Source of the DNA: Pseudomonadota bacterium
Lineage (GTDB): Bacteria > Pseudomonadota > Gammaproteobacteria > Steroidobacterales > Steroidobacteraceae
DNA: 64,000 bases
NCBI GenBank assembly: GCA_021815925.1
Contig: JAKAZL010000002.1
Span: 84,529 to 148,528, forward strand
Reading direction: 5' to 3'
The notes beneath the pieces are model-generated. The model saw only the letters and a program-made list of their open reading frames with translations. It did not search any database and was not told the origin of the DNA. Positions 3,365-7,776 of this stretch are shown piece by piece; position 1 is the first letter of the stretch; the number at the start of each line of letters is the position of its first letter. Made by a program: the position numbers and the translations under genes.

Positions 3365-3994
3365 TTGACCACGGCACATGCCGAGGAGCGTGATACTGCA
3401 GCGCGCGTGCTGGCGACAGCATCGCGGCTGTTCTATGCGCACGGCGTCCGAGCCGTCGGCGTCGAATGGATCGTCGCCGAATCCGGCGTGGCCAAGACGA
3501 GCCTGTATCGGCACTTCCACACGAAGGATGACCTCATCGCCGCGTTCCTGGAGCGCGAAGACCGGGAGTTCTGGTCGCAGTGGGATGAGGTGATCAGTGC
3601 GGCCGCCGGCGATGCGATGCGCGAACTCATGGCCGTGCTCGAGTGGGTCGGGCAGCGCGTCAGCCGCGATGGCTACCGCGGCTGCCCGCAGATCAACGTG
3701 TCGGCTGAGTTTTCCGATCCCCATCATCCCGCACGAAAAATCCGCGCCCGCCACAAGGAAGCGATGTTCCAGCGGCTGCGGACGCTGGTGAGCCGGATCG
3801 GTGTGCATCACCCTGAGGATGTCGCGGCCCAGATCGCGCTGCTTCTGGACGGCGCGTTTTCGAGCGACGGGCGTCTGACGGATCGCGGGGCGAGCCGGAT
3901 TCTCCAGTCGGCCGCTCGGGCATTGATCGCTGCGCAGTCGTCACGCGGCGCGGCGGTCTCCGCACGAGCGAGAGCGACGCGTCAGGCGCGCTAG
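3365..3994 (+). CDS. TetR/AcrR family transcriptional regulator
   Basis: The 209-residue protein has a classic N-terminal TetR HTH at about residues 10-55: AARVLATASRLFYAHGVRAV, then VAKTSLYRHFHTKDDLIAAF. A variable helical ligand-binding domain follows. The start is TTG at 3365, preceded by GGAGCGGGGA as a ribosome-binding site. It is divergent from the saccharopine-dehydrogenase-like gene, with two matching palindromes between them that are its likely operators. The inducer is unknown. Whether it also controls the MFS-TmpAB run about 100 bp downstream on the same strand is open, since no copy of the palindrome was seen there. Confidence 0.9.
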   Translation: MTTAHAEERDTAARVLATASRLFYAHGVRAVGVEWIVAESGVAKTSLYRHFHTKDDLIAAFLEREDREFWSQWDEVISAAAGDAMRELMAVLEWVGQRVSRDGYRGCPQINVSAEFSDPHHPARKIRARHKEAMFQRLRTLVSRIGVHHPEDVAAQIALLLDGAFSSDGRLTDRGASRILQSAARALIAAQSSRGAAVSARARATRQAR

Positions 3995-4093: not shown

Positions 4094-5368
4094 TTGGATT
4101 CCACGACCCGAGACCTCGCGCTGGGCAGCGCCGACGCCGCATTGGGCGTCGCCCCGGATCGGGCCACGCCGCAGATCGTCGCGATGGCCGCGACGCTCAC
4201 ATTCCTATCCGGTTACAACAATTTCATTCTCGGGATCGCGCTGCTGCAGCTGCACTCGGTCCTGAACCTGACGCCGGCCGAATCCGGCATCGTCCTCGCG
4301 GCGACATCCATTGGCATGCTGCTCGGCAGCGTGGTGCTCGGGCGCGTGGCGGATCTCATCGGCCGCAAGCGGGCGAGCATCATCGACCTCGGGGTGGTCG
4401 CTATTGCCGCCATTGCGTCGGCGGCGTCTGTTTCCGCGACACAGCTCGTGTTCTGGCGCCTGGTGCTCGGCGTGGGCCTCGGTGGCGGCTATCCCATCAG
4501 CGCCTCGTACGTGGCGGACATCGGGCCTGCCGCCACCCGCGGCGCCCGGCTGACGCTCGCCTCCAGCGGTTGGGGGGTCGGGGTCCTGGCGAGCGGATTC
4601 GTCGGCTGGCTGCTGCTCCGCGCGCCCGCCGCTGCCCTGGGCTGGCGGACGATGCTGGCCAGCGGAGCCATTCCGGCCGTGATCGCGCTCATCGCCCTGG
4701 CCCTGTGGCGCGTGCCCGAAGCGCCCGCCTGGGTTGAGGCGCAGTCGCTGCAGCCGCTGCCGCTGCGCACCCTGTTCACCCGCGAGAACTGGCCCCGGAC
4801 CCTGGTGATGATCGTGCCGTGGTTCCTGGTGGACATCCCGGTGTACGGCGTCGGTCTGCTGACTCCCACACTGCTCGGGCAGTTGCACCTCGGCGGTCTG
4901 CATGCGGTCATCCTGGGCTACTTCGTGGTTGCAGGATTCACCCTGATCGGCTGCCTGATTCCCTATCTGCTTATCGATCCGCTCGGACGGCGTCCTCTGC
5001 AGATCGGCGGATTCCTCGGCACGGCGGTGCTGATGGCCTGGTTGGCGCTCGACGGGCTCACTGCATCCTGGCTGTGGTCACTCGCGGTGTTCGTCGCGAT
5101 TCAGCTGTTCATCAACGCCGGACCCAACACGACCACCTGGATCGTGGCCGCCGAGCTGTTCCCGACCCGGCTGCGGGCGACGGCGCAAGGCGCGGCCACG
5201 TCCATCTCGCGGCTCGGCGCCATCTCCGGGACACTCCTTCTGCCGATCGTCGATGCGCGCGCCGGCCTGCCCACGGTCTTCGGCATCGCCGCCGCCGTCA
5301 GCCTGCTCGGTGCGCTGTTGACCTGGAGGTGGCTGCCGGAGACGGCGAGGGCACCGCTGGAGCCATGA
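4094..5368 (+). CDS. MFS transporter
   Basis: This 424-residue major facilitator protein is predicted to have 12 transmembrane helices. The conserved loop 2-3 motif reads GRVADLIGRKR near residue 80, and a related DPLGRRP motif follows the central loop. The overall pattern is that of the aromatic-acid/sugar-type MFS families with proton symport. The start appears to be TTG at 4094 behind GAGGCGG. It is followed on the same strand by the dioxygenase/HD oxygenase pair, so it may import their substrate or a related quaternary amine or phosphonate. That link rests only on position. Confidence 0.85.
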   Translation: MDSTTRDLALGSADAALGVAPDRATPQIVAMAATLTFLSGYNNFILGIALLQLHSVLNLTPAESGIVLAATSIGMLLGSVVLGRVADLIGRKRASIIDLGVVAIAAIASAASVSATQLVFWRLVLGVGLGGGYPISASYVADIGPAATRGARLTLASSGWGVGVLASGFVGWLLLRAPAAALGWRTMLASGAIPAVIALIALALWRVPEAPAWVEAQSLQPLPLRTLFTRENWPRTLVMIVPWFLVDIPVYGVGLLTPTLLGQLHLGGLHAVILGYFVVAGFTLIGCLIPYLLIDPLGRRPLQIGGFLGTAVLMAWLALDGLTASWLWSLAVFVAIQLFINAGPNTTTWIVAAELFPTRLRATAQGAATSISRLGAISGTLLLPIVDARAGLPTVFGIAAAVSLLGALLTWRWLPETARAPLEP

Positions 5369-5506: not shown

Positions 5507-6667
5507 ATGCGCAATGATCCTGGGGACTTAAGTGTGAGCATCCGGCGCCTCGACTGGACGCCGACGATGCTCGTGGTCGAGTGGTCGGACGGACGGCGGG
5601 CGGAGTTCGCCAGCATCTGGCTGCGCGACAATGTGCCGGCCGATCGCGATGCGTTCAGCGGTCAGCGCCTGATCGATGTGGCGGATCTGCCTGCCTCGCC
5701 CCGCATCCGCCGCGCCGAGTTGCGCGCCGGGGCTCTCAGCGTCGAGTGGGAGCAGGAGTGCGCGCAAGCCTGCTTCCCGAGTCAGTGGCTGGCGCGACAG
5801 GCGGCGGCGCTCGAGGACCCGAGCGAGCGCTGGCGAGCGAGGCTGTGGCCGGACGGCGCCGCGCGCGATGCGGTGCGAGACTTCGCGTGGGCGACCCCCG
5901 GGACGATGGGCGCAGATCCGGCGACGCTCGCCGACTGGCTGCGGCGCCTGATCGTCGAGGGCATGGCGTTTCTCGCCGACGTGCCGACGGAGCCCGGCAC
6001 GATCGTCTCGGCGCTCTCGCCCATCGGGCAGGTCGCGGCCACGAACTACGGGCTGGTGTTCGACGTCCGCTCGGTCGTCCAACCGGAGAATCTCGCCTAC
6101 TCGGACCGCGGCCTGGGTCTGCATACCGACAATCCCTACCGTGAGCCGGTGCCGGGCTTTCAGGCTCTGCACGTGCTCGTCGCCGCGCCCGACGGTGGGG
6201 AGAGCCTGTTCGCGGACGGTTTCGCGATCGCCGCGGCGCTGCGGCAGGAGTCACCCGGGGACTTCGAGCAGCTGACCCGTACCGCGGTGCCCTTCGCCTA
6301 CCGCTCGCGCGACGCTCTGCTGGAAGCCCGGCGGCCGCTGATCCAGCTGTCCTGCGCCGGTGAAGTGATCGCCGTGCATTACAACAGCCGCTCCATCGCG
6401 CCACTCCCGTTCGCGGCTGCCACGGCAGAGCGGTATTACGGGGCATACCGGCGCTTTGCCGAGATGCTCCGCGACCCCCGCTTCGCGCTGCGCTTCATGA
6501 TGCGCGCAGGCGATCTCGTCGTGTTCGACAATCAGCGCATTCTGCACGGCCGTACCGCATTCATTGCGGCGCGTCATCCGCGGCATCTGCAGGGCTGTTA
6601 CCTCACGCGCGATAGCGTCCGCAGCCGCGCCGCGCTGCTCGCTGCCGGGCCGGAGGGCGGCGCATGA
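5507..6667 (+). CDS. tmpA: Putative TmpA-type Fe(II)/2-oxoglutarate dioxygenase (GBBH-like)
   Basis: The 386-residue protein has a GBBH-type N-terminal domain (DUF971, about residues 8-95, SIWLRDN motif) and a TauD/TfdA dioxygenase domain. The iron triad is visible as His206-x-Asp208 (GLHTDNPYREP) and His347 in NQRILHGR. Such proteins are often called gamma-butyrobetaine dioxygenase. Here the next gene overlaps it by 4 nt and encodes a PhnZ/TmpB-type HD oxygenase, so hydroxylation of the alpha carbon of a 2-(trimethylammonio)ethylphosphonate-like substrate is the better reading. The Cys cluster that binds zinc in classical GBBH N-domains is absent. ATG 5507 is chosen because upstream in-frame codons lack domain sequence. 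Carnitine biosynthesis is the alternative. Confidence 0.75.
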   Translation: MRNDPGDLSVSIRRLDWTPTMLVVEWSDGRRAEFASIWLRDNVPADRDAFSGQRLIDVADLPASPRIRRAELRAGALSVEWEQECAQACFPSQWLARQAAALEDPSERWRARLWPDGAARDAVRDFAWATPGTMGADPATLADWLRRLIVEGMAFLADVPTEPGTIVSALSPIGQVAATNYGLVFDVRSVVQPENLAYSDRGLGLHTDNPYREPVPGFQALHVLVAAPDGGESLFADGFAIAAALRQESPGDFEQLTRTAVPFAYRSRDALLEARRPLIQLSCAGEVIAVHYNSRSIAPLPFAAATAERYYGAYRRFAEMLRDPRFALRFMMRAGDLVVFDNQRILHGRTAFIAARHPRHLQGCYLTRDSVRSRAALLAAGPEGGA

Positions 6668-7215
6668 GCGTGGTCGAGGAGGCGTTTGCGTACTATCGGC
6701 GGCGCGGCGACGCCGCCTACTTCGGCGAGCCCGTCTCGATGACCGAGCATGGCCTACAAGCCGCCCACTTCGCCCAGCTCGCCGGCGCGACTCCCCGTCT
6801 CATCGCCGCGGCACTGCTGCACGATATCGGCCACCTGATCGCCACCGTACCGGATGACATCGAGGACTGGACGGTCGATGCGCGCCACGAGGAAACGGGC
6901 GCCCGGTGGCTCGAGAGGCGCTTCGGCGTCCAGGTGTCCGAGCCGGTCCGGCTCCACGTCCCCGCCAAGCGCTATCTCTGCGCCGTGGATGAGGACTACT
7001 TCGCGCGCCTCAGCCCCGCATCGGTCACGACCCTGAGGCTGCAGGGCGGGCCGATGTCAGCGGCGCAGGTCGCCCGGTTCGAGGCGGAGCCGTTTCATCG
7101 CGACGCGGTCCTGCTGCGCCGCAGTGACGATCAAGGCAAGATCGCCGGTCTGACCACGCGCTCCCTCGAAGACTACCGGGAACTGCTCGAATCGCTTGTG
7201 CTCGGCGATGAGTGA
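6664..7215 (+). CDS. tmpB: Putative TmpB/PhnZ-type HD-domain mixed-valent diiron oxygenase
   Basis: This 183-residue HD-domain protein matches the PhnZ/TmpB family, which cleaves the C-P bond of 1-hydroxy-2-aminoalkylphosphonates using O2 and an Fe(II)/Fe(III) pair. Residues equivalent to the PhnZ set are all present: Tyr19 and Glu22 (gating pair, YFGEPVSMTEH), His29, His53-Asp54 (ALLHDIGH), His75, His98 (LHVPAKRYL) and Asp155, plus the QGGPM motif. The ATG overlaps the dioxygenase stop (ATGA), implying translational coupling. Expected products are phosphate and glycine or glycine betaine, depending on N-methylation of the substrate, which sequence cannot settle. Confidence 0.8.
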   Translation: MSVVEEAFAYYRRRGDAAYFGEPVSMTEHGLQAAHFAQLAGATPRLIAAALLHDIGHLIATVPDDIEDWTVDARHEETGARWLERRFGVQVSEPVRLHVPAKRYLCAVDEDYFARLSPASVTTLRLQGGPMSAAQVARFEAEPFHRDAVLLRRSDDQGKIAGLTTRSLEDYRELLESLVLGDE

Positions 7216-7311: not shown

Positions 7312-7776
7312 ATGACTCAACCGTTCCTCATCAGGTCCATCCGCCGCACGGACTACCTGCAATGGCGCCCGCTCTGGAACGGCTATAACGCGTTCTACGG
7401 CCGAAGCGGTCCGACGGCTCTGGCCGAGCCCATCACCGCCGAGACGTGGGAACGATTCTTCCGCCCGGCCGATCCGGTCCATGCGTTGGTCGCCGAGCAA
7501 GTCGGCGAGCTCGTCGGGCTCGCGCACTTCCTCATGCACCGCAGCACGACCCGGATCGACGATGTCTGCTACCTGCAGGATCTGTACACCGTCGAGCGCC
7601 TGCGCGGACTCGGCGTCGGTCGGCGGCTGATCGAAGGGGTATACGCGGCGGCCCGCACCGCGGGATGCGGTCGGGTTTACTGGCAGACGCAGGCTACCAA
7701 CCGCACTGCGCGGGCGCTCTACGACAGGATTGCGGAACACCGCGGGTTCATCGTCTACACGCACGAACTCGATTGA
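7312..7776 (+). CDS. GNAT family N-acetyltransferase
   Basis: This 154-residue single-domain GNAT protein has the acetyl-CoA pyrophosphate loop RLRGLGVGRRLI near residue 97 and the NRTARALYDRIAEHRGF C-terminal element. It lies 96 bp after the HD oxygenase on the same strand and may belong to the same transcription unit, where acetylation of an amino-phosphonate or amine would be plausible. The acceptor cannot be predicted from sequence. ATG 7312 follows GGGGGTTGG-rich sequence. Confidence 0.88.
   Translation: MTQPFLIRSIRRTDYLQWRPLWNGYNAFYGRSGPTALAEPITAETWERFFRPADPVHALVAEQVGELVGLAHFLMHRSTTRIDDVCYLQDLYTVERLRGLGVGRRLIEGVYAAARTAGCGRVYWQTQATNRTARALYDRIAEHRGFIVYTHELD

Follow-up and report, generated by a model that had tools for sequence, protein, structure and literature searches.

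Cleavage of the C-P bond by a TmpA/TmpB-type system is already known from marine bacteria. Among related systems, PhnZ works with PhnY*, a dioxygenase that is not known to be GBBH-like, and the dioxygenase partner of GmPhnZ1 is likewise, as far as is known, different from the one described below. TmpA/TmpB chemistry consists of an alpha-hydroxylation followed by oxidative cleavage at the diiron site of an HD-domain enzyme (PMC8177086, PMC10574752), and both enzymes of Leisingera caerulea have been structurally characterized (PDB 6npb-6npd and 6npa; Rajakovich 2019, cited in PMC8177086). HD oxygenases of several different specificities are known (PMC10574752), including those of PhnY*/PhnZ (PDB 4mlm, 4n6w) for 2-aminoethylphosphonate (2-AEP) and of GmPhnY*/GmPhnZ1 from Gimesia maris for methylphosphonate. 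A characterized permease for 2-AEP, AepP, is related to GlpT (PMC8316502).

We analysed a 64,000-nt stretch of DNA (the window) from a member of the Steroidobacteraceae (Gammaproteobacteria), which corresponds to positions 84,529-148,528 (forward) of contig JAKAZL010000002.1 in assembly GCA_021815925.1, a 2.73-Mb draft genome of 143 contigs with a completeness of 93.8%. A preliminary description had noted an overlapping gene pair at 5507-7215 and proposed that it cleaves C-P bonds oxidatively. Indeed, both reading frames are open throughout, from ATG at 5507 to TGA at 6665-6667 and from ATG at 6664 to TGA at 7213-7215:

5507..6667, + strand: TmpA-type Fe(II)/2-oxoglutarate (2OG) dioxygenase, GBBH-like_N + TauD, 386 aa (NCBIfam, Pfam, phmmer, tree, active-site table)
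6664..7215, + strand: TmpB/PhnZ-type HD-domain mixed-valent diiron oxygenase, 183 aa (NCBIfam, phmmer, AlphaFold + Foldseek)
6664..6667, + strand: 4-bp ATGA overlap of the HD gene start codon with the dioxygenase stop codon (reading of the ORFs)

Translational coupling of the two genes through the overlap is likely; a GTG farther upstream is a possible alternative start of the dioxygenase. Like the Leisingera proteins, which were the best structural matches, the pair combines a GBBH-like Fe/2OG dioxygenase with an HD diiron oxygenase. Unlike them, it stays under the curated cut-offs (with about 37-42% identity to the Leisingera pair), its dioxygenase belongs to a deep, separate clade, and its relatives carry a linked permease of the OPA family. 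With PhnZ, the HD protein shares the oxygenase chemistry expected of the family, the metal ligands and the YxxE gate; it differs in being only about 34% identical, and 2-AEP has no trimethylammonium group.

The dioxygenase and its active site

The top NCBIfam family for the dioxygenase was TmpA (NF049936), with 355.2 bits against a curated cut-off of 400. The gamma-butyrobetaine dioxygenase model TIGR02409 gave 306 bits, under its cut-off of 414.75 and below the TmpA score of the same protein. A phmmer search against solved structures returned TmpA 6npb as the best match (E=7e-74) and human gamma-butyrobetaine hydroxylase (GBBH, also BBOX) at 4e-35. The AlphaFold model was of moderate confidence (pLDDT 80.8) and its global rmsd to TmpA was large; it served for fold ranking only, in which TmpA came first, followed by GBBH and DfmD. 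In the phylogenetic tree, one clade (92% SH-aLRT) contained TmpA, the enzyme of the window and all HD-adjacent GBBH-like sequences except that of a Pseudomonas plasmid (L152), which fell into a third clade outside it; the main clade also included one sequence not scored as paired (L071). Judged by this tree, the enzyme groups with HD-paired TmpA and not with GBBH. The preliminary description had named action on gamma-butyrobetaine alone as an outcome that would contradict its reading; in silico, both the position in the tree and the presence of the residue equivalent to TmpA Arg288 point the other way. Within the main clade, the family of the window formed a sister group (support 100) on a stem of 1.35 changes per column, and because this stem is long, the substrate specificity of the clade may have shifted.

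Active-site positions were compared in a column table made from an alignment of 82 dioxygenases:

6047..6100, + strand: codons of the aromatic-cage residues Tyr181, Phe185 and Tyr198 (column table; identical to Leisingera TmpA)
6089-6091, + strand: Asn195, equivalent to TmpA Asn187 (column table)
6122..6130, + strand: His206-x-Asp208, iron ligands (invariant in the dioxygenase alignment and in every group of the residue table)
6383..6391, + strand: Asn293-Ser294-Arg295, TmpA positions 286-287-288 (Arg288 kept, Asn287 replaced by Ser)
6545-6547, + strand: His347, third iron ligand (invariant in the dioxygenase alignment)
6581-6583, + strand: Arg359, 2OG-binding (invariant in the dioxygenase alignment)
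6599-6601, + strand: Tyr365, fourth cage residue (column table; identical to Leisingera TmpA)

The His-x-Asp/His site reported as intact in the preliminary description was thus found complete, together with Arg359. An aromatic cage for the trimethylammonium group is common to TmpA and human GBBH (PMC9296572; for the roles of the cage residues and of Asn187, also PMC4736438), and its four residues are the same in the window as in Leisingera TmpA. The two enzymes differ in how the opposite end of the substrate is held: TmpA contacts the phosphonate through Asn187, Asn287 and Arg288, whereas human GBBH uses two asparagines (PMC9296572). The enzyme of the window has the equivalents of Asn187 and Arg288, with serine in place of Asn287. 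It resembles BBOX in fold, Fe/2OG site and quaternary-ammonium cage, but BBOX binds a carboxylate, has no arginine at position 288 (alanine in human GBBH) and has no HD partner. Arg288 was present throughout the window's clade (27/27), the classic TmpA group (25/25) and the third, mostly unpaired clade (11/11), but in only one of the 16 other GBBH-like sequences. Serine at the Asn287 position occurs in the window, in five other members of its clade and in 2/25 classic TmpA-pair sequences.

The third TmpA-like clade (L131-L137, L139, L140, L152 and L039 5120-6346) is mostly not HD-adjacent. It keeps Arg288, but Asn187 is replaced by Asp, Asn286 by Ser and Asn287 mostly by Pro, and on these replacements its substrate is probably different.

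The HD-domain protein

The HD protein scored 203.9 bits with TIGR03276, the model for phosphonate-degradation HD oxygenases, just under its cut-off of 214.6, which the homologue of one relative (L002) exceeded with 216.2 bits. Scores with the TmpB model NF049941 (186.5 bits) and the PhnZ1 model NF052439 (174.1 bits) were below the cut-off of 300 in both cases. GmPhnZ1 is a member of the same HD oxygenase family, and the score with its model is far under the curated level. Against solved structures, phmmer found TmpB (6npa, E=3e-39) and PhnZ (1e-26), and otherwise one spurious match (E=0.35). The AlphaFold model was confident (pLDDT 92.9), and all ten Foldseek matches at E<0.001 were TmpB or PhnZ, with TmpB the best; a tRNA-processing enzyme followed at E=0.06, and HD hydrolases of the alarmone, c-di-AMP and SAMHD1 types appeared only at E>0.1. 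In a poorly resolved HD tree, the family of the window formed its own group outside the TmpB clade, and an AU test on a 48-row tree did not reject a joint clade of this family with TmpB (p-AU 0.585), a value that is uninformative. Clustering with nucleotide phosphohydrolases, which would have spoken against the preliminary description, was not seen: by phmmer, tree and Foldseek the protein goes with TmpB and PhnZ.

The motifs H...HD...H...H...D (metal ligands), the fifth histidine and YxxE have been defined for this group (PMC8177086, PMC11203657). Every one of the PhnZ iron ligands and the gating pair claimed for the protein is present (H29, H53-D54, H57, H75, H98, D155, Tyr19 and Glu22), as in TmpB:

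6718..6729, + strand: Tyr19-x-x-Glu22 gate, equivalent to PhnZ Y24/E27 and TmpB Y30/E33 (alignments; role from PMC8177086)

Tyr19, H29, H53-D54, H75, H98 and D155 were invariant in a diverse alignment of 19 HD sequences, with E22 and H57 conserved in at least 90%; ligands, fifth histidine and gate were all invariant across 33 family members. TmpB and PhnZ also have the same residues at K102, S120 and R152, which do not vary within the window's HD family. In the known gate, the tyrosine leaves the iron while the glutamate turns toward the ammonium of the substrate (PMC8177086). According to the alignment, YxxE is no hallmark of TmpB alone, being common to most HD oxygenases of the group. In six HD oxygenases with no TmpA neighbour, serine occupies the position of the gating glutamate.

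Genomic context and distribution

Among 296 genomes of the order, 29 encode the HD oxygenase, 56 a TmpA-like protein and 27 both; the co-occurrence in 27/29 TmpB-positive genomes corresponds to a Fisher p of 1.7e-20 when the kinship of the genomes is ignored. In 23 of the order's other genomes, the two genes are again neighbours. Given this recurrence, the co-occurrence and the phmmer E-values to TmpA and TmpB, the pair is not a chance finding. The clade of the window very probably represents a divergent, deep branch of the known system whose two genes have stayed paired in one family of gammaproteobacteria. This would add a family of uncultured gammaproteobacteria to the organisms with oxidative phosphonate use of the TmpA/TmpB type; among its named relatives are bins from bog and other environmental metagenomes. 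Since the curated TmpA and TmpB models miss this clade, it may be under-represented in surveys of phosphonate degradation; by comparison, a rhizobial pair (L067) exceeds both cut-offs, with 550 (TmpA) and 321 (TmpB) bits. The preliminary expectation that automatic annotation would yield a carnitine biosynthesis enzyme and a phosphohydrolase is dated, as TmpA, TmpB and the phosphonate-degradation HD oxygenase are by now covered by NCBIfam models, and applies only in part: related plasmid genes are mostly annotated as 'TauD/TfdA family dioxygenase' and 'HD domain-containing protein', while the names butyrobetaine dioxygenase or phosphohydrolase are given only occasionally.

We surveyed the neighbourhood in 20 relatives (up to 18 kb each, two of them on shorter contigs). 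In 17/20, including 15/15 adjacent-pair members of the window's clade, a member of one gene cluster adjoins the HD gene or the pair, and the two cluster members that were scanned are OPA-family permeases (TIGR00881, GlpT/UhpC-like), the transporter class of AepP. A second OPA paralogue is found in several relatives, next to PhnX-PhnW or next to PhnW and a phosphonoacetaldehyde dehydrogenase. Because of this permease linkage, the kinship with AepP and the PhnW-linked paralogues, a role of the pair's neighbourhood in organophosphonate use is very likely, independently of the enzyme families. While the chemistry itself is unsurprising, the link to a GlpT/AepP-like permease is informative.

The arrangement varies among relatives. 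In the closest one (genome G213, L039 5120-9413), a second TmpA-like gene, an OPA permease, TmpA and TmpB follow each other, giving two GBBH-like dioxygenases. In genomes G237 and G281 (L031, L033), the HD oxygenase directly follows the permease with no TmpA between them, and those TmpA-like genes that were examined at other loci of the two genomes belong to the third clade or are more distant. The permease-HD link is broader than the pairing with TmpA, since planctomycete and acidobacterial loci (L059, L088, L096) have the HD oxygenase after the OPA permease with no TmpA detected. L031, L033, L045, L048 and L049 share, upstream of the permease or pair, a gene from a cluster whose L031 member was identified as a CehA/McbA-family metallohydrolase, and L050 also has one; the encoded protein is possibly an ester hydrolase feeding the pathway. 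On plasmid pNsp_b of Nostoc sp. ATCC 53789 (L160), an HD phosphonate oxygenase gene is part of a C-P lyase operon, between the gene for a triphosphate diphosphatase (phnM-like) and phnJ.

The window itself has a different neighbourhood:

3365..3994, + strand: TetR-family regulator (NCBIfam, Pfam; link to the pair putative)
4094..5368, + strand: MFS transporter, upstream with a 138-bp gap (Pfam MFS_1/Sugar_tr; best NCBIfam models TIGR00895 and TIGR00887, both far under cut-off)
7312..7776, + strand: GNAT acetyltransferase, downstream (Acetyltransf_1; link to the pair putative)

The MFS protein is a possible uptake system of the pair and may have replaced the carrier of the relatives. At the thresholds used, 21 further genomes of the genus yielded no homologue, nor did 368 further genomes of the class at E<=1e-60; the best plasmid match was 33% identical. 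The GNAT protein matched the aminoalkylphosphonate acetyltransferase model weakly (20.2/142 bits). Linkage of the MFS, TetR and GNAT genes by conservation was dismissed, as none of them turned up next to the pair in relatives from the family. As for a putative regulation, four Pho-box matches with up to three mismatches in the window compare with 9.8 expected by chance and were discarded; a promoter scan gave no promoter-like site, and a terminator scan a single terminator-like site, at chance rate and inside the MFS gene. OPA permease, PhnW, PhnJ and PhnD had no match in the window's genome, where absences may be gaps of the 93.8% complete draft, and PhnW is present in 6/7 sampled congeners. 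Among the routes tested, the pair is the only phosphonate route found in this genome.

Proposed reaction and alternative readings

Oxidative C-P bond cleavage by a TmpA/TmpB-type pair, with a TmpB/PhnZ-like HD protein and a TmpA-like dioxygenase carrying Arg288, is the best-supported reading of the locus; we put its probability at about 0.87. The term 'TmpA/TmpB-type' is appropriate for the proposed mechanism and not for strict family membership, as the NCBIfam scores are 355/400 and 186/300 bits, and for this reason the substrate is inferred. Of the substrates suggested in the preliminary description, 2-trimethylammonioethylphosphonate (TMAEP) stands as the best candidate, and we consider it reasonably probable that it is the main substrate; 2-AEP is less likely because the quaternary-ammonium cage is intact. 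The two genes would form a two-enzyme oxidative phosphonate-degradation operon. Using Fe(II), 2-oxoglutarate and O2, the dioxygenase would hydroxylate the carbon adjoining the phosphorus in a choline-like, quaternary-ammonium substrate such as a 2-(trimethylammonio)alkylphosphonate, most likely TMAEP; the Tyr/Phe/Tyr/Tyr cage would grip the cation, while Asn195 and Arg295 would hold the phosphonate. The (R)-alpha-hydroxyphosphonate would then be bound by the HD protein at a mixed-valent Fe(II)/Fe(III) pair, whereupon Tyr19 would swing off one iron and Glu22 toward the ammonium, allowing O2 to bind. A four-electron oxidation of the C-P bond would yield phosphate and a carboxylate, which from TMAEP would be glycine betaine.

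The natural substrate of the same two-step cleavage could instead be a 2-aminoethylphosphonate with fewer methyl groups, or some other zwitterionic phosphonate, if the specificity of the clade has shifted. This is a refinement of the reading above, and the confidences in the two overlap; we regard it as possible, with the odds clearly against it. The deep, separate dioxygenase clade with its long stem, the replacement of Asn287 by Ser shared with five other clade members, the closer match of the HD protein to the general TIGR03276 model than to TmpB and the range of specificities among HD oxygenases speak for such a shift, but cage, Asn187 and Arg288 are identical to TmpA. To our knowledge, the 2-AEP and methylphosphonate hydroxylases belong to another 2OG subfamily that is not GBBH-like, which also counts against it. 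In a more novel reading, which we consider unlikely, the clade would be a functionally separate oxidative phosphonate pair with its own substrate, the OPA permease of the relatives would exchange phosphonate for phosphate, and the lineage of the window would have swapped in an unrelated MFS carrier.

Two further explanations were weighed. The pair would be a decaying remnant, no longer useful after loss of its transporter, if the absence from this genome of PhnW and of the OPA permease adjacent in 15/15 flanked clade relatives is taken at face value; given that both reading frames, all catalytic residues and the 4-bp overlap are intact, that an unrelated MFS gene is present upstream in the same orientation and that the genome is a draft, we judge this very improbable. 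We give still less credence to a gamma-butyrobetaine hydroxylase of carnitine synthesis lying incidentally beside a phosphohydrolase. The dioxygenase does have the fold and family of GBBH in common, with 306 bits for TIGR02409, but TmpA is its best match, a phosphonate-binding arginine replaces the alanine of human GBBH, the pair is conserved across a family and the HD fold is that of TmpB/PhnZ, HD hydrolases appearing at E>0.05 only. In a separate case, the TmpA-like/HD pair on the Pseudomonas aeruginosa plasmid pF045_1 (L152) lies next to genes for a choline-binding transporter protein and choline dehydrogenase, a context consistent with a quaternary-ammonium substrate.
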